45,610 bases of DNA, from the NCBI GenBank assembly GCA_025055035.1, contig JANWZB010000010.1:1-45610 (forward strand). Direction: 5' to 3'. This DNA is from Candidatus Kapaibacterium sp. GTDB lineage: Bacteria > Bacteroidota > Ignavibacteria > Kapaibacteriales > UBA4661. Under the pieces are notes generated by a model. It was not told where the DNA came from. It was given only the letters and a program-made list of their open reading frames with translations, and made no database searches. The position numbers and the translations under genes were made by a program. Each line of letters opens with the position of its first letter. The first letter of the stretch is position 1. Positions 4,848-17,426 of this stretch are shown here, piece by piece.

Positions 4848-7800
4848 ATGAAATTTGTACTAGCACAGGTGCGTCGCTCTGCAAGTGCCACACTTGCTGT
4901 GTTGACTGCACTCCTTTTGGTGGCGCCGTCACTCGTGCGTGCGCAGGGAACTGCGGACTCTGAGGTTGGCGGCGAAAGCCGGGACTTCCGCTCAGTGCGG
5001 AGCGGTCGATGGGTGGACTTGTCCACATGGCAGGTCTTTCGTTCGGGTGTGTGGATTCCTGCCACACGCGAGGTTGGTGTTCCTAACGGTGCAAGTAATG
5101 TCTTTATCGAGACGAACCATACCATTATTGCTACCCGTGCTGCAACGGAAGTCATTCAATGGAACGGTTCTCAAGCATGGGCGTTTCTTGAAGTCAATAA
5201 CCTCCACATCAATACCGCTGCCTCTATTACAACAACGTGGGGAAGCGTGATTGGTGGTTTTAGACGAGATGCAGCAGGAAATGTACTAGATACCTACGAT
5301 GGTGATGGTAATAGTTATGCACCTGGAAACCTAACGCGTCCAAGTCTTGGATCTATTAGCTGGGAACTCAGCCTCTTCTCTCCTGGACAGAGCAACCTTG
5401 CTGCACAGCTTCCGGGTGGTACGCTTGGTGGGTATCCATTCAACCGTATCGGAAATAGAGATGTATACTCAGCGCCAAACCCGCTGCTTGAGCCGAATGG
5501 TGGCAACGTTCCTACGCCACGCAACATGGAATTGCGTGTATATGGAAAGCTGCGGTACTATGCGGGTAGTGCCCTCGACCGCACCGACCGCGATGCTAAT
5601 ATCCAAGTTACCGCTGCAACTATTGGTACGGGCTCGACAATTGTCTTCCGTGGCGTAAGCCGTGTGATTACAGAGCCGCAAGAGTGGTCTACAACGCTTG
5701 CGACACAAACAGGGCGGTTTGATAATACAGCGCAAACAGCAGCGCTTGGTACAGGAGGACTGCAGCTTGGTACAGCAAGCGAGCGTCTGAACAACTTCCG
5801 TGGCCTCATGGGGCGTAACTCGTTCTGGACGGCAATTTTCGACCTTGGTCGCGTCGTAGACAGAAACTTTTCTGTCGACCAATTTACCGGTCCGACGGAT
5901 GACCCCTCGACGGCTGTTGGGCGCATTCAAGGGAACTTTACGGCAGGTATTATTCAGGTGCGCCGCGGTACGCTGCGCTTCGAAGGGCAGGCATTGCTTG
6001 CAAACGAAGGTGCTCCGACCTCTGGATCGATTCAGATTATGAATAATGCTGTGCTCCAAATGGTGTCAGGGAATATTGGACGTACAGCCGTTGCGCTGCC
6101 ACAGTTTGCCAATGCATATGCTGGTACCTCGGTTATTTGGCCTACGTGGGGCACTCCGCCTGTCAATGTTCCCGGTCCAATGATGAATCAGTATATGTTT
6201 CCTCAAACTCCATCGGGTCCATTTGCTGTTACTTCGCGCATGCGGTATTTTGTCGTGGAAGAAGGTGGTGCGCTGGATTTCGTTGGTGTTGTTGGAACGT
6301 TGAGTGCTGCAGATGTTCGCTTTAACGGTACGGTCATTTACTCGCGGACAGGTGATCAAACCCTCGTGGGCGACTCGCCGTATTTGTCCTACAACCCAGC
6401 GGGTACAATTATACAACTGCCGATAAGTGGTGAGAACCTAAATTGTGGTGAAAATGGCATATTTGACCCGTATAATAACAACCTTAATGCTCCAAGGACA
6501 GATATACCAGGCGACCCACGCCCAGGTACTCTTGGTGCTTTTGGTACTGCACCGGCAGGGTTAGGTGTTGGAACAGCAGCTCTCTTCCAGCCTTCTACTA
6601 CCGCTGCATATAGCCACCTTGTGTTGCGTGGTTCAGGAACCAAGTTCTTGATTGCAACCACTGTCACCATCTCGCGTGCTTTGATTATTCAAGGTGAAGC
6701 GCGTATTGGCTTGCAGCAGGTTTCAGGAGACGGGGTTCAAGTTCAGATTATGAATAATATGGTAATGAATGGTGTTCTACCTTATTACTTGCAGCAGCCC
6801 ATAGGTGGAGAATTAGCAGTTACGGAGGGTACGAGTGTAGCTTCTCGCGCAGGCTTCTTCCCGCCGCTTGTATATCTGCGTGGTACGGGTCTTACAGGAC
6901 TACGTCAGGAGAATAATATTGGTACAACTTTGCGTGCAACGCTTGGTAATGGTGGTGTCGAAGCAGACAGAGATCCCCTGTCTGGCGCGATTCCTCAGCC
7001 GATGTGGTCGGTGTACGGTGGAAATACGGACCCCGTTATTTTTGTAGGTTTTACAACAGCATCGACACGCCCAATTTTCTATGACCAAGATATGTATCCC
7101 GAAGGGCAGTCGTATCCTGTGGGTATGGTACTGTCGGGCTCGCTGAACCGTGAGCAAGTTGATATGAGTCCATGGAATAAGCCTGCTGTTGTGCACGGTC
7201 TGCCAGCTGAGCCAAGCTACGCTCCTTATGGAACCTCGTTAACGCACAATCATGGATGGACAGCGCGTGGCTATACGTACGGTCCAACTGTAGCGGGAGG
7301 TGATGGAAGCATTGTATTCCTCTCTCAGACGCTCGATGGTGCTCGAAGAGGTCAAGTGATTCGCCAAACACCAGACCGCGTCAATGGTCTTGTTAATGCA
7401 ATCACGGGCTATTTTGATGTACCGGCTGCTGAAACCCCGAATGCGAGTGGTGTTAACGGCGGTAATATTATCGCTGGGTTCCCCATGATTACTAACAGCC
7501 TTTTCGACTACGCTATCAATACGACTGCAACAACAACGCTGCAGTATGATGGTGAGCTTGCGGATGTGATGACGCAAATTGAGTTCCCACAAGGAGTTGT
7601 TGGTCCGCACAACCTTGTTATTAACGTTGCATCGAATGTGTCGCTGAATCTGCCGATTCGTACAGCAGACTATCGTCGTTTCGATGAAGCAGGAATCATG
7701 TGGAACATGACGCATCTTAACTTCTTGAATAAAACATCGACACTGTTTGGTGCAACAGCGGGGACAATTATCATTGGTCCGGAGTATGTAAACTCGACTA

Positions 7801-10800
7801 ACGGTAACTTGCCGCGCCATGCATTCAACCCAACGACAGGGCTATATCAGGCAAGTGCTATCTACAATCAAGGTGGATATGGTCGCCAAATTACTCCGGG
7901 CGTTCTTGCATCAGCATATATTGACACGCGCCCAGATGAGGCGATTGTTTCGACCAAGATTCTTGACCGCTACTACACCACAGGTGTTGGTGTACGTCCG
8001 TCGGTAACGCTGACAGGTACGTTCGATGGTCGTGTACGTACAGGCTTCCCCACGCAGCGGGTTGTCGCTCCGCGCTACGATGGTCTGAGCTATGTTGCGT
8101 ATATTACCTCTGGCTTGGATGCTGCAACTACAGGTGTTCCTGGTCAAACACCTTGGGGATTGTGGCAAGACTTTGGCCGCCGTGGTGATTACAACAACTT
8201 TGGTGTGCTTGAGTTGCGTCGCGGGAATCTCAACATTCCAAATCGCAATATCGAGGTTGTTCTGGGTGCTCCTGGAACTGCACCAGTACGCTTCAACTAT
8301 ACCTTTGTAATGTCATCAGCAGCTATTATTTCGCAGGATCAGCGGAATGTGACAGCGCCGGTGCTGACAACAACAGGAAATCCGGTAGAAAACAGGCGCG
8401 TTGGTGTAGGTCATCCAGATGCCCAAGTGTGCTTGTCTGAAGCAACGGGTGCTGAACGCTATCCAAGCTTTACACAATGGCGCTCGTGGGGTGTGCGAAA
8501 TGCAGCAGCAAACCCAGGTGTAACAACCCCAGCTGTTGTGCGCGGTCCTGCAGGTCCTGATAACCTTGCTGGTACACTTGTCGGTGGCTCACTCTCTAAT
8601 ATCGTCTTTACGGGTGGTACAGGTGGTACACTCGCTGCTGGTATAGCGTTCTATAGTCCTCTTGGAACACCTACAGGGGTGACATACCCACGGTATGGTG
8701 CTATTAGCAATGAAAACAATGGCTTGACAGAACTTTCGAGCCAGCTTGGTATCCTCGGCTTGCAAACTCTGTCGCCATTTAGTGTTACAAACCGCTATAA
8801 CGCTGGTCCAGAGCTGTTCAGTGAGGCCGAAAGCCGTGGTCCTATTACCTACGGGCGGAGCAGCATAACAAACCAAGTAGCACTTGCTTATAAGCCACTG
8901 TCTGGTAATAATCAAGTCTTCCCTGGAGCATCATCTGCTATTCCGGCATCGACCTCTTTCCAAGATTATATTTTCCGTGCAAACAATGCGTGGAATATCG
9001 ACTTGCCGTATGTTCGGAATGGCTTGCAGCATGTAACATTCTTGCGTGCTACGTCTAACGTGTTAACCCTTGTTGGTAACCGCGAGAATGTGGAAAATGG
9101 CTTCAGTGATGGTGTCACCTCGCTTAAGCCTGAAGATTCTGGCCTGCAAGTATATGGTACCATAGCAACAGCACGGGGTGATATTGACTTGAACGGTCGT
9201 AACATCGAGCTTGGTGGTAATAACTCGATGCTCGTTGAAGCATTTGAGCGCGCGCAATATGTTGACTCTCTTAGTGGTCGTCCTTTCTGGACACGTGAGC
9301 AAGTGGGTATGCCGTTTGCTCTAGTAACAACCCAGTACCGTACAGGTGATCCGACCCCAGCGTATCCATCGCGTCCTTCAACAGTGCTGAACAACCATCG
9401 TAGTGTTCGTGCGTACATTGGTCTGACCTCTGGTCGCAATGTTCAAGCAATGAACCAAAGCCTTGGTATTCAGCAAGTACAAGAGGAGCCAGGTGGATTG
9501 GGTGCTGAAATTTATCAAACAGCAAACCCAGCACAGTTCCGCATTCGTCGTTGGCAGACACGCGGCAATGGTGTGAATGGTGCTGTAACGACCCGTCCAG
9601 GTGTGCGTGGTGCCGACCGCTACTGGCAAATTGAAACCACTGGCACGATGGAGGTAACGATGGCTCGCTCGGAGCTCCGCTTGCAATACGTTGATACCGA
9701 CCTCAATAACGAGAACGGTACACAAGCAGGTTTGCCTCCAGCATCGATCAATATCTTCCGTGCACGGGGTATCCCATTTGTTGCTCCGAATAGTCCTGAT
9801 ATTCGTCCATTCCAAGCGCTCTTTGCACAGCAGCTTGTCGGATTGGATTCGTACAACTTTGTAAAACAGCTTACGATTACTGGTCCGACACAAATCGTTA
9901 GTGGTGTAACGGTTCTGAATACGGGTAACTTTGCTGCACAAAGTAATACGCCATCGCGTGAACCAGATATTACAAACCCGCAAACACCAGGTGCTGGTTT
10001 CCAAATCTGGGCAATCAGTGTTCCTGCTCCGCGTTGTATCACGCTTCGTGGACAGCGCTTCCTTGGTCGCTTTGGTGAGCGCGCTGGTGCGGGTTCGGAC
10101 TTCCCTGCTGCTGGGCTTGATATCACAGGCTTCCCACGTCCTTTCGCAGCAATTCAGGACGGAGGCGGTATATCTCAAACTACAGCAGAGCAGTTTGGAA
10201 ACATTATCGGTCCATTCAAGGCGGGGTTTGCAACTAATGCAACGATTATTGCCGATCTTCTTGATGAGTTCGGTAATATTGCAACAACGAACTTTACGGC
10301 GCGTGCTGCGCTTGTTGTTGGTCAAGTTGGTACGACGGTTGACCGCCTTGATGCTAGCGGCAACCTTGTTCGTGGCGAAGTGCGAGCGATTGGTCCTTGG
10401 AACACACCAGTACCGCAACTCTTCCAGAATAACCGACCAAATGAGGTAGGGTATCCAGATGGACGAATTGTTGCTATCGCTGGTAGTGGTGGCGTTGGTG
10501 GCCGCTTCGAATGGCCGAATGTTCGCTTGGATGGTATTGCTTCGACGACAGTAACGTTCTCTGTATCGTTTATTGCTGATACAAGTGTAGGCAGTGATGT
10601 TCCGCTCAACATCACCTTCTGCGATAACGTTCCTGTTCAAGTATCGTTGCAAGGTGGCTTCCCATTCAGCGTAACGTTTGCTACACAGAATGCAAATAAC
10701 GTCGGCGCAACGCGTCTCTATCCTGGTGCACAAGGTCCTTTTGCGGCACCTGGGCGTGTAGCTGCACAACCAGGGGATCCGAATTCAGGATATGATGGTT

Positions 10801-13256
10801 CTATTCTTACAAACCTAACAGGTGTACCTGTAAGTGGTGTTGTTGTTGGTCAAACAGTAAGTTTTCCATACGTGGCTCCCGGCTATAGCTCTATCACCGT
10901 TATTGTCAAAGACCGCTTCGGTAACTATGCTTCTTTCCCAACGACGGCGACAATCTCTATCGCCGGTGGTACACCACCCGTTGATCAATTGCGTACGCCG
11001 CTTGTTGGTCAACAGGCAACGTCTGTTGTAACGTGGGGTCTGGGTAATCTTGGCCTTGAAGTTTCAGGTCCACCGCAGCTTGCAACACCAGGTATTCCGC
11101 GTACAGCTACAGCCCAAAATGCACCGTTGCAAACTGGTACTCAGCTCATCACTGCCCGTGCAGCAGCTGTATCTCCTGCACTTGCACCAACAGGTTTGGG
11201 ATATCCACCATTCAATAACCCACAAATTGCTCTCCATATTGCGCAGTTCCCGAATTTCCAAATTTGGGGTGCGACATCGAGCAATGTGACGTTGGTTGTT
11301 GCAACGACGAACTCTGACCCGAATGCGCCGATTGGTGTTGGTGCTCCTGGCAATACAGCTGCTACTATTCACATTGTTCCAGGTCCAGCTATTGGCATTG
11401 CTCCTGTACTTATTCCTGATATCTACAACAATAATCAGCTCGATCGTATGCCGTCGAGAATGTTTATTGGACGGAGCAATGCTGCGGATCCGCGCACATG
11501 GTTCTATGTTCAAGCCGTTGACCAGTTTGGTAACCGTGTTGATAACGGCCCGAATGCATATAACGGTGGTACGGCAACCATTAGGTTTGCAACACCGCAG
11601 CAAGGTCTGCCGTTCAGCACTGTGCCGCCGTTCCAGTTCACTGCATCAAATGACCCGTATGTGAAAGTGAATAATCAAGCGTACACAGCAACGGGTACAA
11701 GCGCTGTGGCAGTCAATGGCTTGTTTACATTCAATAACTTTGTTCCGAACGGTCCAGCAAGCATTGATCCGATGGGCAGAGATGTTGTCCTGACGTTCCA
11801 AGATCCTGGACTCCCGGGCATCAGCACACCGCTGTCCTCTGGTGCAGTGAACCTGTTCCGTCCAATTCCACCCATCACGACTGCTACGACAACCTTCTTG
11901 CCTGTCCCGGTTGTAAGTTTCTCTGTACCTGAGTCAGGTACAGGTGCTCCAGCAAACGGTGCTGTTCGCGGCGGTGTGAATATCCTGGTGCTCAGAGAAC
12001 GTGCTCGCACATTCATTAGTGGCGGTAACGAAGGTCTAGAATCTGGTGCTTTGCGTGTGAGCCGCGCGGCAACACAGGCAGCAAATGCAATTGCAGTAGG
12101 GTACACTGTTGGATACTTTAACGCCAACAATGCCTTGAACCCTGTAACATTTGCTCTCAATCGCAGTGCGCTTGTGCCACTGCCGAACGTAGGCACTGAA
12201 ATTCTCCAGTTGCCAGCACCACTCCCAGCAGGTGTTGTAACAACGCCGCCATTCCCAACGCCGACACCTGTGGCGATCAATGGATTACAAGGTGACCTCT
12301 CGCCACGCACTCGCCCAAGAGATTTGCCTGAACAATCGGTGAATGTAACGCCTCCGGGTCAGCCAGCCACCTTCTTCTTGCCTGAAGGTGTGAATGAACA
12401 GCTTGTCAACTTTACAGCACGGTTTAGCGACCAGTCGTGGCCACGCAATCCGGGTATTCAGGGCATTCGTCTTGCGATTCTGCAACTCTTGCCTCCAGAT
12501 GCACAGAATGCAACCATTTATGATGTGAACAGGATGGGTGGCGTTGATTCTGGGTTTGTTGCCCTGCTTGACCCAACTCCTGTACCTCCGGTTATCATGA
12601 ACGCAATTCAGGATAAGCAGCTACTGCGTCCAACGGGCATGACACCGACCGAGGATCGCATCGAGCTTGAGTCGCCACAATGGCGTCCTGACAACCGCCC
12701 CGGCTTTGTATTCTATGACGACAACTATGATCCGATGACGTATACTGCTACGTCGTCCGATCCGTCGCTTGTCAGTGTACAAATTCGTCCGCTTGATAGA
12801 ACGGTTGTTGGCGGCGATACAGACCCGCGCCCAACCCTGTACTATGCTGTGCAGCCGGGTGCACCTGCTGACCGCACTGTCGAGATTACCGTTGTTGCAA
12901 ACGACGGTACAGCTCGTACTGGTGAGCAGCAGCGCCTGGCAACAGATCGCTTCAACGTAACGATTCGCAACAGTATCACCAGCGTTGCTGTTGATCCTGC
13001 GACAATCGGCTTCAGTGTAGCACCGAACCCGACTGTTGATCGCTTTACCGTTACGGCGAAAGCGCAGAAGACAGGCGTTGTGTCTATCAAGGTCATCAAC
13101 GTTCTTGGTCAGGTTGTACGCAGCGTAGATCTCAATGTCCATGCTGGTCAAGTATATAGCCAAGAAATCGAGCTTTCTGGCTTGCCGACAGCACAGTACA
13201 CTGTCCAAATCAACGACGGTGTGAGCTCGGCAACACGTCAAATTATCAAGAACTAA
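4848..13256 (+). CDS. Giant T9SS-secreted surface protein (2802 aa)
   Basis: A very large exported protein. Residues 1-33 form a signal peptide (basic VRRSAS, hydrophobic LLLVAP, then VRAQG). Residues 48-95 carry a GRWVDLSTW...GASNVFIETNHTI module, common at the start of T9SS cargo and also found in the 28996 protein. The body is Gly/Asn/Thr/Pro-rich and cysteine-poor, suggesting beta-structure. Three D-x-FGN motifs near residues 1806, 2022 and 2225 (DEFGN, DRFGN, DQFGN) are typical of bacterial Ig-like/invasin domains. Residues 2600-2710 contain a cadherin-like stretch (TYTATSSDPSLVSV). The last 80 residues, from SVAPNPTVDRF through INVLGQVVRS to the final Lys-Asn, match a T9SS type A sorting domain (TIGR04183 type). 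It is probably anchored outside the outer membrane as an adhesin or coat protein. AAGGGAG precedes the ATG and a strong terminator follows. Confidence 0.9.
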   Translation: MKFVLAQVRRSASATLAVLTALLLVAPSLVRAQGTADSEVGGESRDFRSVRSGRWVDLSTWQVFRSGVWIPATREVGVPNGASNVFIETNHTIIATRAATEVIQWNGSQAWAFLEVNNLHINTAASITTTWGSVIGGFRRDAAGNVLDTYDGDGNSYAPGNLTRPSLGSISWELSLFSPGQSNLAAQLPGGTLGGYPFNRIGNRDVYSAPNPLLEPNGGNVPTPRNMELRVYGKLRYYAGSALDRTDRDANIQVTAATIGTGSTIVFRGVSRVITEPQEWSTTLATQTGRFDNTAQTAALGTGGLQLGTASERLNNFRGLMGRNSFWTAIFDLGRVVDRNFSVDQFTGPTDDPSTAVGRIQGNFTAGIIQVRRGTLRFEGQALLANEGAPTSGSIQIMNNAVLQMVSGNIGRTAVALPQFANAYAGTSVIWPTWGTPPVNVPGPMMNQYMFPQTPSGPFAVTSRMRYFVVEEGGALDFVGVVGTLSAADVRFNGTVIYSRTGDQTLVGDSPYLSYNPAGTIIQLPISGENLNCGENGIFDPYNNNLNAPRTDIPGDPRPGTLGAFGTAPAGLGVGTAALFQPSTTAAYSHLVLRGSGTKFLIATTVTISRALIIQGEARIGLQQVSGDGVQVQIMNNMVMNGVLPYYLQQPIGGELAVTEGTSVASRAGFFPPLVYLRGTGLTGLRQENNIGTTLRATLGNGGVEADRDPLSGAIPQPMWSVYGGNTDPVIFVGFTTASTRPIFYDQDMYPEGQSYPVGMVLSGSLNREQVDMSPWNKPAVVHGLPAEPSYAPYGTSLTHNHGWTARGYTYGPTVAGGDGSIVFLSQTLDGARRGQVIRQTPDRVNGLVNAITGYFDVPAAETPNASGVNGGNIIAGFPMITNSLFDYAINTTATTTLQYDGELADVMTQIEFPQGVVGPHNLVINVASNVSLNLPIRTADYRRFDEAGIMWNMTHLNFLNKTSTLFGATAGTIIIGPEYVNSTNGNLPRHAFNPTTGLYQASAIYNQGGYGRQITPGVLASAYIDTRPDEAIVSTKILDRYYTTGVGVRPSVTLTGTFDGRVRTGFPTQRVVAPRYDGLSYVAYITSGLDAATTGVPGQTPWGLWQDFGRRGDYNNFGVLELRRGNLNIPNRNIEVVLGAPGTAPVRFNYTFVMSSAAIISQDQRNVTAPVLTTTGNPVENRRVGVGHPDAQVCLSEATGAERYPSFTQWRSWGVRNAAANPGVTTPAVVRGPAGPDNLAGTLVGGSLSNIVFTGGTGGTLAAGIAFYSPLGTPTGVTYPRYGAISNENNGLTELSSQLGILGLQTLSPFSVTNRYNAGPELFSEAESRGPITYGRSSITNQVALAYKPLSGNNQVFPGASSAIPASTSFQDYIFRANNAWNIDLPYVRNGLQHVTFLRATSNVLTLVGNRENVENGFSDGVTSLKPEDSGLQVYGTIATARGDIDLNGRNIELGGNNSMLVEAFERAQYVDSLSGRPFWTREQVGMPFALVTTQYRTGDPTPAYPSRPSTVLNNHRSVRAYIGLTSGRNVQAMNQSLGIQQVQEEPGGLGAEIYQTANPAQFRIRRWQTRGNGVNGAVTTRPGVRGADRYWQIETTGTMEVTMARSELRLQYVDTDLNNENGTQAGLPPASINIFRARGIPFVAPNSPDIRPFQALFAQQLVGLDSYNFVKQLTITGPTQIVSGVTVLNTGNFAAQSNTPSREPDITNPQTPGAGFQIWAISVPAPRCITLRGQRFLGRFGERAGAGSDFPAAGLDITGFPRPFAAIQDGGGISQTTAEQFGNIIGPFKAGFATNATIIADLLDEFGNIATTNFTARAALVVGQVGTTVDRLDASGNLVRGEVRAIGPWNTPVPQLFQNNRPNEVGYPDGRIVAIAGSGGVGGRFEWPNVRLDGIASTTVTFSVSFIADTSVGSDVPLNITFCDNVPVQVSLQGGFPFSVTFATQNANNVGATRLYPGAQGPFAAPGRVAAQPGDPNSGYDGSILTNLTGVPVSGVVVGQTVSFPYVAPGYSSITVIVKDRFGNYASFPTTATISIAGGTPPVDQLRTPLVGQQATSVVTWGLGNLGLEVSGPPQLATPGIPRTATAQNAPLQTGTQLITARAAAVSPALAPTGLGYPPFNNPQIALHIAQFPNFQIWGATSSNVTLVVATTNSDPNAPIGVGAPGNTAATIHIVPGPAIGIAPVLIPDIYNNNQLDRMPSRMFIGRSNAADPRTWFYVQAVDQFGNRVDNGPNAYNGGTATIRFATPQQGLPFSTVPPFQFTASNDPYVKVNNQAYTATGTSAVAVNGLFTFNNFVPNGPASIDPMGRDVVLTFQDPGLPGISTPLSSGAVNLFRPIPPITTATTTFLPVPVVSFSVPESGTGAPANGAVRGGVNILVLRERARTFISGGNEGLESGALRVSRAATQAANAIAVGYTVGYFNANNALNPVTFALNRSALVPLPNVGTEILQLPAPLPAGVVTTPPFPTPTPVAINGLQGDLSPRTRPRDLPEQSVNVTPPGQPATFFLPEGVNEQLVNFTARFSDQSWPRNPGIQGIRLAILQLLPPDAQNATIYDVNRMGGVDSGFVALLDPTPVPPVIMNAIQDKQLLRPTGMTPTEDRIELESPQWRPDNRPGFVFYDDNYDPMTYTATSSDPSLVSVQIRPLDRTVVGGDTDPRPTLYYAVQPGAPADRTVEITVVANDGTARTGEQQRLATDRFNVTIRNSITSVAVDPATIGFSVAPNPTVDRFTVTAKAQKTGVVSIKVINVLGQVVRSVDLNVHAGQVYSQEIELSGLPTAQYTVQINDGVSSATRQIIKN

Positions 13257-14070: not shown

Positions 14071-15465
14071 CTAATGCTCTATCTTGTATTTTTCGAGCAT
14101 ACGATAAAGCGTGGCGCGCCCAATATCTAACTTCTGTGCTGCTTCTTGGATATTTCCACCTGTAATCTCGAGGGCAATGCGAATTGCTTGCTCCTTAATT
14201 TTGTCCATAGGAAGGATATCACCTGTAGCACTTGTAAAGTGAATATCCTTGCCAGAAGGAGAAGATGGAATTTCAGGGATATCGGGGTCCGAAGGTGCAA
14301 GAAGTTGAAGCTCTGCTTCTGTAATAGTGCGTGTTTCTGCAAGCACAACGGCGCGCTCTATGGTATTTTCAAGTTCACGCACGTTCCCAGGCCAATGATA
14401 GTGGGTAAGAATACGCAATGCTTTAGAGCTGAATGTTCGTGCAGGCTGGTTATATCGGGTAGCAAATTTCTCAAGAAAGTACTGTGCTAGTACAGGAATG
14501 TCTTCCTTGCGTTCACGAAGAGGGGGAATTTTAATCGGGAACGAAGCAAGGCGATAGTATAAGTCTTCGCGAAATGTACCTTGTTTGATTGCCTCTTGTA
14601 GATTTCTGTGCGTAGCTGAGACGATGCGGACATCGACGTGGATAAGTTCCCCGTTGCTTCCAACACGCTCAACTTGCTTTGTCTGCAAAACGCGGAGAAG
14701 TTTCGCTTGGAGGCTTAAATCCAGCTCACCAATTTCATCGAGGAAGAGTGTTCCGCCATGTGCCTGCTCAAACTTTCCTATTTTCCGTTGAATTGCGCCA
14801 GTAAATGCTCCTTTCTCATGTCCGAAAATTTCGCTTTCTAGAAGGTCTTTCGGAATGGAGGCACAGTTTAAAGCAACAAAGGGTGCTCCAGCACGTTTTG
14901 TACCTTCATGTAGTGCTCGAGCAATAAGCTCCTTTCCTGTTCCTGTCTCACCTTGAATAAGAACAGCTATATCAGTGTTTTGTGCTTTTTTGACAAGCTT
15001 AAAAACGCTCTGCATCGTATCGCTCACAGCGATAATGTTAGCAAACTTGATGCGCTCAGTTGATTCCTCAGAAAGTTTCTTGACTTCATTGGTCAGTGCG
15101 TATACATGAATTGCATTCCTTACGGTAATTTCTAGCTTCGTGAGATCGAGTGGTTTCTGCACGTAGTCAAATGCTCCAAGCTTGATGGTTTCAACAGCTG
15201 TGTCAATTCTGCCTTGTCCAGACAGAATAATCACAGGGAGCTCGGGAATACGCTCTTTAATAGCTTTGAGTACTTCTACCCCATTCATACCGGGCAGCAT
15301 GATGTCGAGAAGAACCAGAGAAGGAGTACAGGCATGAGAGGATAGTTCTTCGAGGCAGTCTTCACCTCGCGCGAAAATACGCACAGTGTACCCTAACGAG
15401 CTGAGATTATGTTCTAATAAGAGTTGCAGATGTGCTTCGTCCTCGACGACATATATTGTGTGCAT
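14071..15465 (-). CDS. Sigma-54-dependent response regulator (NtrC family)
   Basis: A 464-residue transcription activator with three domains. A receiver domain spans residues 1-120, with acidic pocket E8/D9, phospho-acceptor Asp54 in LLDIMLPGMNG, and the KPL lysine. A central AAA+ domain follows, with Walker A GETGTGKE, the sigma-54 contact loop GAFTGAI and Walker B FLDEIGEL. The C-terminus is a Fis-type helix-turn-helix (GGNIQEAAQKLDIGRATLYRMLEKY). Because GAFTGA is intact, it should open sigma-54 promoters when phosphorylated. It lies 93 bases downstream of a PAS histidine kinase on the same strand, its probable partner. Its targets are unknown. The GTGTCAG repeats upstream of the giant surface gene are one candidate. 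Confidence 0.95.
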   Translation of the reverse strand: MHTIYVVEDEAHLQLLLEHNLSSLGYTVRIFARGEDCLEELSSHACTPSLVLLDIMLPGMNGVEVLKAIKERIPELPVIILSGQGRIDTAVETIKLGAFDYVQKPLDLTKLEITVRNAIHVYALTNEVKKLSEESTERIKFANIIAVSDTMQSVFKLVKKAQNTDIAVLIQGETGTGKELIARALHEGTKRAGAPFVALNCASIPKDLLESEIFGHEKGAFTGAIQRKIGKFEQAHGGTLFLDEIGELDLSLQAKLLRVLQTKQVERVGSNGELIHVDVRIVSATHRNLQEAIKQGTFREDLYYRLASFPIKIPPLRERKEDIPVLAQYFLEKFATRYNQPARTFSSKALRILTHYHWPGNVRELENTIERAVVLAETRTITEAELQLLAPSDPDIPEIPSSPSGKDIHFTSATGDILPMDKIKEQAIRIALEITGGNIQEAAQKLDIGRATLYRMLEKYKIEH

Positions 15466-15558: not shown

Positions 15559-16770
15559 TTACTCGTCGTGATGAGAAGAAAGCGGTATGATAACGCTAAA
15601 CGTTGAGCCTTGTCCTACAATGCTTTGAACACGAATTGTTCCCCCATGAAGCTCAACAATTTGCTTTGCAATCGATAAGCCAAGTCCTGTTCCACGTATA
15701 TCTTGACCATTACTATCTTTCTGCTTGACGCGAAAGAATTTCTCAAAAAGGCGTGGTAGGTCGTGTTCAGCAATGCCAATTCCTGTATCCTGTACAGCAA
15801 CTTGTACGTATTCCGAAGTCCTTGTTGCACTCACAGTAATAGAGCCATTAGGAGGGGTGAATTTAACTGCGTTTGCAAGGAGATTTACAAAGACTTGCGT
15901 TATACGGTCTGGGTCGAGCGAGAGGAGAGGAAGATGAGTATCGAGGTACGCTTGCGTGATAGTGATACGTTTATATTCCGCTTCGGGAGCAATAATGGAG
16001 ATAGCATACTCAAGAATAGTGCGAATATCGCTTGGTTGTCTGACAAGATGCATAGTGCCGCTTTCAATGCGAGCAATATCTAGAAGGTCTTCAACGAGGC
16101 GTTCTAGGCGGCGCCCATCGTCAAGAATAATTGTAAGGAACTGTTGTACTTTGTCAGGAGCGAGGTGTGGCGAGCGTAGAAGGGTTTGAGCAAAGCCGAT
16201 AATAGAGGCAAGCGGTGTGCGAAGCTCATGCGATACTTGAGACACAAACTCATTTTTCATTTCATTGATGCGATGAAGGGCTTCGGCATGCTGGCGTTCT
16301 CGGTCGCGCTCAAATTCCATGCGTTTTAGGGAGGTAATGTCCCGACCTTCAACGATAAAAAAGTCGATATTGCCGTCGGAATTGAAAATGGGTTTAATAG
16401 AGAGGTCGATAACAGCGCGAATGTCCTCGGCACTGACTAGCTCTGTTGTGTAGCGGATAAACTCACCTCCAGAAGCGCGGTATAGGCTTGCTTGAAGCTT
16501 GGAGCGAGCAGCTTCGTTGAGCCAGCAGTTCAGATCCCATAGAAATCGTTCGCGCGCTTCATGTGCGGAAATACCAGTGAAGTTGATAGCAGCTTGATTG
16601 ATTTCGAGTACTGTGCCATCAACGTGCACAACAAAAATAAACTGAAATGTGTTGTTGAAAATAGCTTGGAAGCGCTTACGAAGATGGAATTCACTCGGAG
16701 CATCGTATGAAGCAGCCATCGTGCCCTCAATATCGTGAGAAGGTATGAGACCAAGAAAGCAAGATAGCAT
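15559..16770 (-). CDS. PAS-domain sensor histidine kinase
   Basis: A 403-residue kinase without obvious membrane segments, so probably cytoplasmic. A PAS domain spans roughly residues 30-150 (FQFIFVVHVDGTVLEINQAA, then IDFFIVEGRDIT). The HisKA box has phospho-His181 in SQVSHELRTPLASIIGF. The ATPase domain shows the N box (NLLANAVKF), G1 (DTGIGI), F box (LFEKFFR) and G2 (GTGLGLSIAK). It should phosphorylate the response regulator encoded just downstream. The ATG at 16770 is used here; another ATG at residue 18 (MAASYDAP) is possible. A soluble PAS sensor suggests an intracellular cue, though the ligand cannot be read from sequence. A long structured intergenic region lies upstream of this gene. 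Confidence 0.94.
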   Translation of the reverse strand: MLSCFLGLIPSHDIEGTMAASYDAPSEFHLRKRFQAIFNNTFQFIFVVHVDGTVLEINQAAINFTGISAHEARERFLWDLNCWLNEAARSKLQASLYRASGGEFIRYTTELVSAEDIRAVIDLSIKPIFNSDGNIDFFIVEGRDITSLKRMEFERDRERQHAEALHRINEMKNEFVSQVSHELRTPLASIIGFAQTLLRSPHLAPDKVQQFLTIILDDGRRLERLVEDLLDIARIESGTMHLVRQPSDIRTILEYAISIIAPEAEYKRITITQAYLDTHLPLLSLDPDRITQVFVNLLANAVKFTPPNGSITVSATRTSEYVQVAVQDTGIGIAEHDLPRLFEKFFRVKQKDSNGQDIRGTGLGLSIAKQIVELHGGTIRVQSIVGQGSTFSVIIPLSSHHDE

Positions 16771-16863
16771 TTTTGTTGCAATTGACGTGAGAATTTGTCT
16801 GGAGTGTGCAGGTGTAATGGAGAGGTGATTGCTGTAGTTGTGCAGCAGCTATATAAAAATGTA

Positions 16864-17099
16864 GTCCGGTCTATGTAGGGAGGGTTTGTTGATGCAGGGT
16901 GAATTACGAAACGAGCGAGACATACATAGACCGGACACAGGAAAAGCATTCGCGGCAGAGGAAAAAGTTCTAACGAGGGGTATTAACGCACTATCTCCAA
17001 CAACCGCGAATTCCTTGTGTAGTGCAACACCGTTCTGGAACGTATACGAGCTGGAACATGTATGAGCAAGGAGTGAAGAACAACAAAGAGCGGTGTGCA
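16864..17099. ncRNA. Candidate structured RNA: three abutting stem-loops
   Basis: Stem A pairs GTCCGGTCTATGTA (16864-16877) perfectly with TACATAGACCGGAC (16923-16936). Stem B starts on the next base. ACAGGA (16937) pairs with TCC-T-TGT ending 17018 (one bulge), then ATTCGCGG (16948-16955) pairs with CCGCGAAT (17004-17011). Stem C pairs TGCA-A-CACCG (17023-17032) with CGGTGTGCA (17091-17099), with one bulged A. Together they cover about 236 bases with almost no gap between stems. This is what a folded non-coding RNA would show, but DNA-level functions are not excluded. The transcribed strand is unknown, so the strand is left open. Confidence 0.4.
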
Positions 17100-17273
17100 T
17101 ATCAAGGGAGACGAAACGAGAATAGCTTGCTAAACAATACTAATGGATAGTAGCAATATTGTCTATAGCTGATTGTTTATAGCTGCATGCATTGCACCTA
17201 TTGCTGAGCCAAAGATTATGCCAAGATTCGGTGCACGCCCGAAAGCATTGGTATAACAGTATTTCCCTTCGTT

Positions 17274-17287: not shown

Positions 17288-17426
17288 CTCAAAACCTGTA
17301 GTGTTCTAGAATGAGATTTCTTGATACTGTGCGTCATTCTGAAACAAAGCAGTTGACTATCATACGGGATTTAGCTATCTTCCTGTTCTACTCTAATGTA
17401 AACTCGAAACAATCTGTTCGTTTTCA

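Follow-up and report, generated by a model that had tools for sequence, protein, structure and literature searches.

A conserved RNA in Candidatus Kapaibacterium and its probable identity as a sigma-54-dependent small RNA

The window analysed here, a stretch of 45,610 nt of DNA from Candidatus Kapaibacterium sp., contains a gap between a gene for an M28 peptidase and a gene for a PAS histidine kinase (15559-16770, minus strand). The kinase gene is followed by one encoding an NtrC-family response regulator (14071-15465, minus strand), which combines a Response_reg domain, a Sigma54_activat domain with the GAFTGA motif and a Fis-type HTH, and is a candidate activator of the RNA described below. 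Further along, positions 4848-13253 hold an ORF of 2802 aa, which matches Pfam only through a C-terminal secretion sorting domain (Por_Secre_tail).

An earlier note, made from the letters of the sequence, had proposed that three abutting stem-loops in this gap (16864-17099) form an undescribed structured RNA. Stem 1 pairs 16864-16877 with 16923-16936 in 14 perfect base pairs, exactly where the note had placed it; stem 2, inside 16937-17018, is composed of an inner 8 bp (ATTCGCGG/CCGCGAAT) and an outer 6 bp with a bulge; stem 3 joins 17023-17032 to 17091-17099 with the single bulge that had been described. No perfect 14-bp arms with loops of 20-100 nt occurred in 40 first-order Markov replicates of the window. 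Stem 1 is the sole perfect 14-bp repeat with a loop of that size within the actual 45.6 kb. Folding of these 236 nt, compared with shuffled sequence, gave z-scores of -3.2 (plus strand) and -3.6 (minus strand).

When 41 genomes were searched at the DNA level, four, all of the same genus, gave short matches to the stem 1 loop. The matches fall in the corresponding gap, with the M28 peptidase on one side and the PAS histidine kinase on the other; in one genome (G002) the kinase side is replaced. In a minus-strand alignment of the five sequences, the three hairpins recur in identical order. Trained on the four relatives, with the window copy left out, a covariance model of hairpin 1 recovered the window copy (38.5 bits, E = 5.2e-9), and the hairpin 1 model added two copies, in G004 and G005, for a total of seven. 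Homologues of the RNA are present in seven of the eight genomes of Candidatus Kapaibacterium examined, and the window genome holds a single copy.

In an alignment of the seven sequences fitted to the model, 13 of the 17 pairs of hairpin 1 carry changes in both partners, and 98% of the cells are paired; shuffles gave 78% and slid registers no more than 50%. A MAFFT alignment of five sequences that was not fitted to structure gave 100% pairing, and both partners had changed in 6 of 14 pairs. For hairpins 2 and 3, four sequences provided five compensatory pairs and 93% pairing. MAFFT alignments A3, A5 and A8, in which the stems were misaligned, were excluded, and A4, which carries an artificial guide row, was kept out of every model. 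Compensatory changes in related genomes, which the note had named as the evidence that would support its proposal, are seen in all three hairpins. The Rfam check that it had suggested matched no family: nothing in Rfam 15 reached its gathering cut-off, whether in the window region or at the homologous loci, and a relaxed search produced weak chance matches to unrelated families. No reading frame common to the seven homologues was found. Homologues, covariation in three of three hairpins, and the lack of both a conserved reading frame and an Rfam match uphold the proposal: the three stems are real and are parts of a conserved RNA absent from Rfam.

The seven-sequence model, run over 294 genomes of the class, gave clear matches within this genus only. 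Distant matches in G075, G120, G192, G197 and G200 were rejected as chance because they lie inside open coding frames, and a sixth, in G183, was rejected as an ordinary terminator, its match being limited to a stem that closes a loop of 5 nt, plus a U-run. A scan of 85,462 species with a sequence pattern yielded 90 matches, with the stem present in Kapaibacterium-type loci alone. A faster-evolving homologue elsewhere could escape these searches. We came across no publication that deals with small RNAs of the genus Candidatus Kapaibacterium.

The earlier note was right about the structured RNA and had named no strand. Wobble pairs do not allow a strand call (6 G-U versus 4 A-C); the orientation of promoter and terminator assigns the transcript to the minus strand. 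The predicted sRNA extends over 16853-17197 (minus strand, ~345 nt), its exact ends being predicted, the 5′ end from the promoter and the 3′ end from the U-run; over the family, the predicted length is ~290-380 nt. The RNA exceeds the 236 nt first described, and its regulatory DNA reaches 17346. From 5′ to 3′ on the minus strand, the RNA comprises a conserved 5′ end identified by alignment (17176-17195; consensus ACAAGGCRTGYAGCAYAAA, diverged to GCAATGCATGCAGCTATAAA in the window), hairpin 3, the 5′-most of the described hairpins (17023-17099), whose loop in relatives holds GUCUCCCCUGC, hairpin 2 (16937-17018), with its ATTCGCGG stem, a conserved GGAGAUAG inside and a C-rich loop CCCCUCCC in relatives, and hairpin 1 (16864-16936), a terminator stem with a 45-nt loop. 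In the 5′ part of the window copy, we also observed a tandem 14-nt repeat, ATTGT(C/T)TATAGCTG (17158-17185).

In all seven copies, hairpin 1 is directly followed on the minus strand by a run of 5-7 U, as in an intrinsic terminator; in the window this run lies at 16855-16859 (U5, compared with about U7 in relatives). Two features of this terminator count against the explanation developed here: the loop, with 25-45 nt, is unusually large, and large loops lower the efficiency of intrinsic terminators; the window copy has five U only. Across the copies, this loop contains a near-invariant stretch of 25-30 nt, UAAYUNACCC(C)UGCAUCAAACAAACCCUCCC, which corresponds in the window to UAAUUCACCCUGCAUCAACAAACCCUCCC (16878-16906, minus strand) and is presumed to be the active site of the RNA. 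A near-invariant loop on a stem that has been rewritten is what would be expected if the loop does the work and the stem need only pair.

The best-scoring site upstream of the RNA is a sigma-54-type promoter, TGGCATAATCTTTGGC, with -24 and -12 elements at 17208-17223 (minus strand). The corresponding pattern, TGGCAY-N4-TTTGR, is present upstream of all seven copies and is the top-scoring site in each upstream region, with 4-10 occurrences of the pattern per genome. Its -12 element, TTTGR, departs from the canonical TTGCW, which counts against the assignment. Further upstream lies an inverted pair resembling an activator site, TGTTTCAGAATGA-N19-TCATTCTAGAACA (17302-17346, minus strand; span 45 bp), whose centre precedes the -24 GG by 103 nt. 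Inverted half-sites of this type (TGTTYCA...TGRAACA) accompany each of the seven copies, with a span of 45-46 bp and a centre 103-115 nt upstream of the -24 element, and score higher in every copy than each of 200 shuffles, scores that are partly circular because these seven loci also supplied the consensus. A scan of 1.19 Mb of DNA found such pairs only at the RNA loci and at a single unrelated site, which lacks the promoter. The copies of G004 and G005 provide less circular support, as they show the same span and distance at another genomic location. Sequence features expected of a sigma-54-dependent sRNA are found at the locus, namely a -24/-12-type promoter and activator-like sites within the usual range of roughly 80-150 nt upstream, the motif of the latter again coming from the same loci, and the genome encodes both sigma-54 (RpoN, with a Sigma54_DBD match) and an NtrC-type activator, the Sigma54_activat regulator. 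Additional TGGCACATTCTTTGA sites with a TTTGA -12 element, which resemble sigma-54-type promoters, were seen at L219 1500 and L209 1500 (reverse strand) and are also found in several genomes of the genus.

In the window, G001, G006 and G007, the kinase gene follows the RNA on the same strand at a distance of ~100 nt. In G004 and G005 the RNA occupies a different locus, beside Lnt and genes oriented towards it, where it retains promoter, activator sites and terminator; the kinase orthologues of these two genomes have another upstream gene, with no RNA before the kinase. This relocation as a complete unit points to a free-standing sRNA rather than a kinase leader. In G002, the contig that carries the RNA lacks the kinase and has other genes on the downstream side of the RNA. 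On this contig (C500), the RNA is followed by a short remnant of the kinase start and by sugar-nucleotide genes, a sign of rearrangement at the site, and on contig C102 of the same genome a transposase gene is located directly upstream of the kinase (L029, L124).

Within the genus, the kinase and the regulator are present in exactly the seven genomes that bear the RNA, adjacent to each other only in the window, G007 and probably G002. Their separation in G001, G004, G005 and G006 counts against the explanation given below. Neither the two genes nor the RNA were found in G003 (86% complete) and G008 (70% complete), absences whose weight is reduced by the incompleteness of both genomes. Against the association, G009, from another genus, has the kinase and the regulator and gave no match to the RNA.

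Conservation, covariation, promoter-like and activator-site-like elements, the terminator, independence from the kinase and co-occurrence with kinase and regulator constitute the computed support for what we consider, with good confidence, the best explanation: a trans-acting sRNA that depends on sigma-54 and is controlled by the two-component system. The earlier note had overlooked the terminator role of stem 1, the promoter, the activator sites and the adjacent two-component system. Transcription, the identity of the activator, action in trans and the targets are what we infer from the sequence. The PAS kinase would phosphorylate the adjacent NtrC-type regulator (product of 15465-14071), the likeliest activator, and the phosphorylated regulator, bound at the paired upstream sites, would switch on the sigma-54-type promoter. 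The resulting RNA of ~290-380 nt would end at the intrinsic terminator of hairpin 1, with the loop of this hairpin (25-45 nt) and the C-rich stretches of the upstream hairpins kept single-stranded, and these exposed loops may act in trans by contacting partner RNAs or an RNA-binding protein. Within such trans action, we favour base-pairing with mRNAs, which seems somewhat probable; binding of a protein is less probable, and protein titration is the chief rival.

If the RNA sequestered a protein, as CrcZ does for Hfq-Crc, its repeated C-rich/CCCUGC loops would titrate an RNA-binding protein. The repetition of a C-rich motif in several loops of one RNA fits this, as do the motif CCCUGCAUCAAAACAA in the hairpin 3 loop of G007 (L003), which nearly duplicates the conserved part of the hairpin 1 loop, and the failure of antisense searches with up to 3 mismatches to find a full-length mRNA complement. 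However, a loop of 25-30 nt kept at nearly every base exceeds the needs of a simple titration motif, and the copy number of the motif varies between relatives, which makes titration rather unlikely. Base-pairing could take the form of blocking ribosome binding sites, with the hairpin 1 loop as the complement of a Shine-Dalgarno sequence plus downstream AUG (GGGAGGGUUUGUUUGAUGCAGGG): in all seven copies, the loop when reverse-complemented shows a G-rich, SD-like stretch separated from an AUG by 4-8 nt, and Staphylococcus aureus RNAIII is a known case of C-rich loops that contact SD sequences. Yet SD usage is weak in the window (7 of 34 ORF starts), and searches with up to 3 mismatches gave, apart from the RNA's own loops, other sites of which those inspected fall within unrelated coding sequences and include no conserved mRNA start as antisense target. 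We regard this specific mode as possible, if on the unlikely side.

The remaining readings do without an sRNA acting in trans. As a cis-acting leader of the kinase operon, the RNA would use hairpin 1 as an attenuator or regulatory element in the 5′ region, in agreement with its position in the window, G001, G006 and G007; but the RNA does not always lie 5′ of the kinase, being elsewhere in G004 and G005, where the kinase is without it, and separated in G002, and an unsystematic look noticed no alternative anti-terminator fold, so that this reading is improbable. A DNA-level palindromic element (MITE/REP or attC-like site) without a transcript would have a precedent in the long palindromes found elsewhere in the genus (L150) and is nevertheless very improbable, given the single copy in the genome, the conserved anatomy from promoter to terminator and the combination of a conserved unpaired loop with compensated stems. 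An 83-aa ORF does span the region on the minus strand in the window, and a plus-strand ORF begins MQG; a small protein gene is scarcely credible, however, as the seven homologues share no frame and the plus-strand ORF is merely MQG-stop in several of them.

The favoured sigma-54-dependent sRNA has parallels in other bacteria. CrcZ and CrcY, which operate with CbrA-CbrB in Pseudomonas and Azotobacter, are sigma-54-dependent, have upstream activator subsites TGTTAC / GTAACA and form a separate transcription unit (PMC8871633, PMC6296734). The Kapaibacterium RNA resembles CrcZ in being a predicted sRNA beside genes for a histidine kinase and an NtrC-type regulator, with a sigma-54-type promoter, putative upstream activator sites and, in all likelihood, a transcription unit of its own. 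It differs in belonging to another phylum, in showing no sequence or Rfam match and in its position upstream of the kinase, whereas crcZ is downstream of cbrB. Moreover, CrcZ has repeated A-rich Hfq/Crc-binding motifs and not a conserved terminator loop. Qrr RNAs are ~100 nt long and Hfq-dependent; the Kapaibacterium RNA has no sequence or Rfam match to them and shares with them the sigma-54 dependence, predicted here, under an NtrC-family regulator, which in Vibrio is LuxO (PMC10162802). With RNAIII of S. aureus and other sRNAs with C-rich loops, it has in common exposed C-rich hairpin loops and a terminator hairpin at the 3′ end, but no sequence relation to them, and the target logic of RNAIII is uncertain here because SD usage is weak in this lineage.

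The style of control is known, and the RNA family appears to be new and restricted to one genus of uncultured bacteria, which suggests that control of the CrcZ/Qrr type arose independently in a Bacteroidota-related lineage. It may even represent a new class of sRNA, a proposal that we hold tentatively, in which the long unpaired loop of the terminator hairpin would be the invariant working site, with the stem free to change, and in which a sigma-54 two-component system of a deep Bacteroidota lineage, where we found no such sRNA described, would have the RNA as its main output. Genome sequence alone provides here a complete testable unit, from sensor kinase to sigma-54 promoter to sRNA, in which evolution itself marks out the active loop of the RNA.

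Finally, a long palindromic repeat, GTGGCACGGACATTCTTGTCTGTG, was noticed in L150 (1490-1575; G004:C11:84364-84438). Its loop, TGAACCCTGCGTCAAACCT, resembles that of the sRNA, and no U-run comes after the repeat. The repeat is possibly a REP-like element, and a similar palindrome is located in L015 at about 1727-1840.
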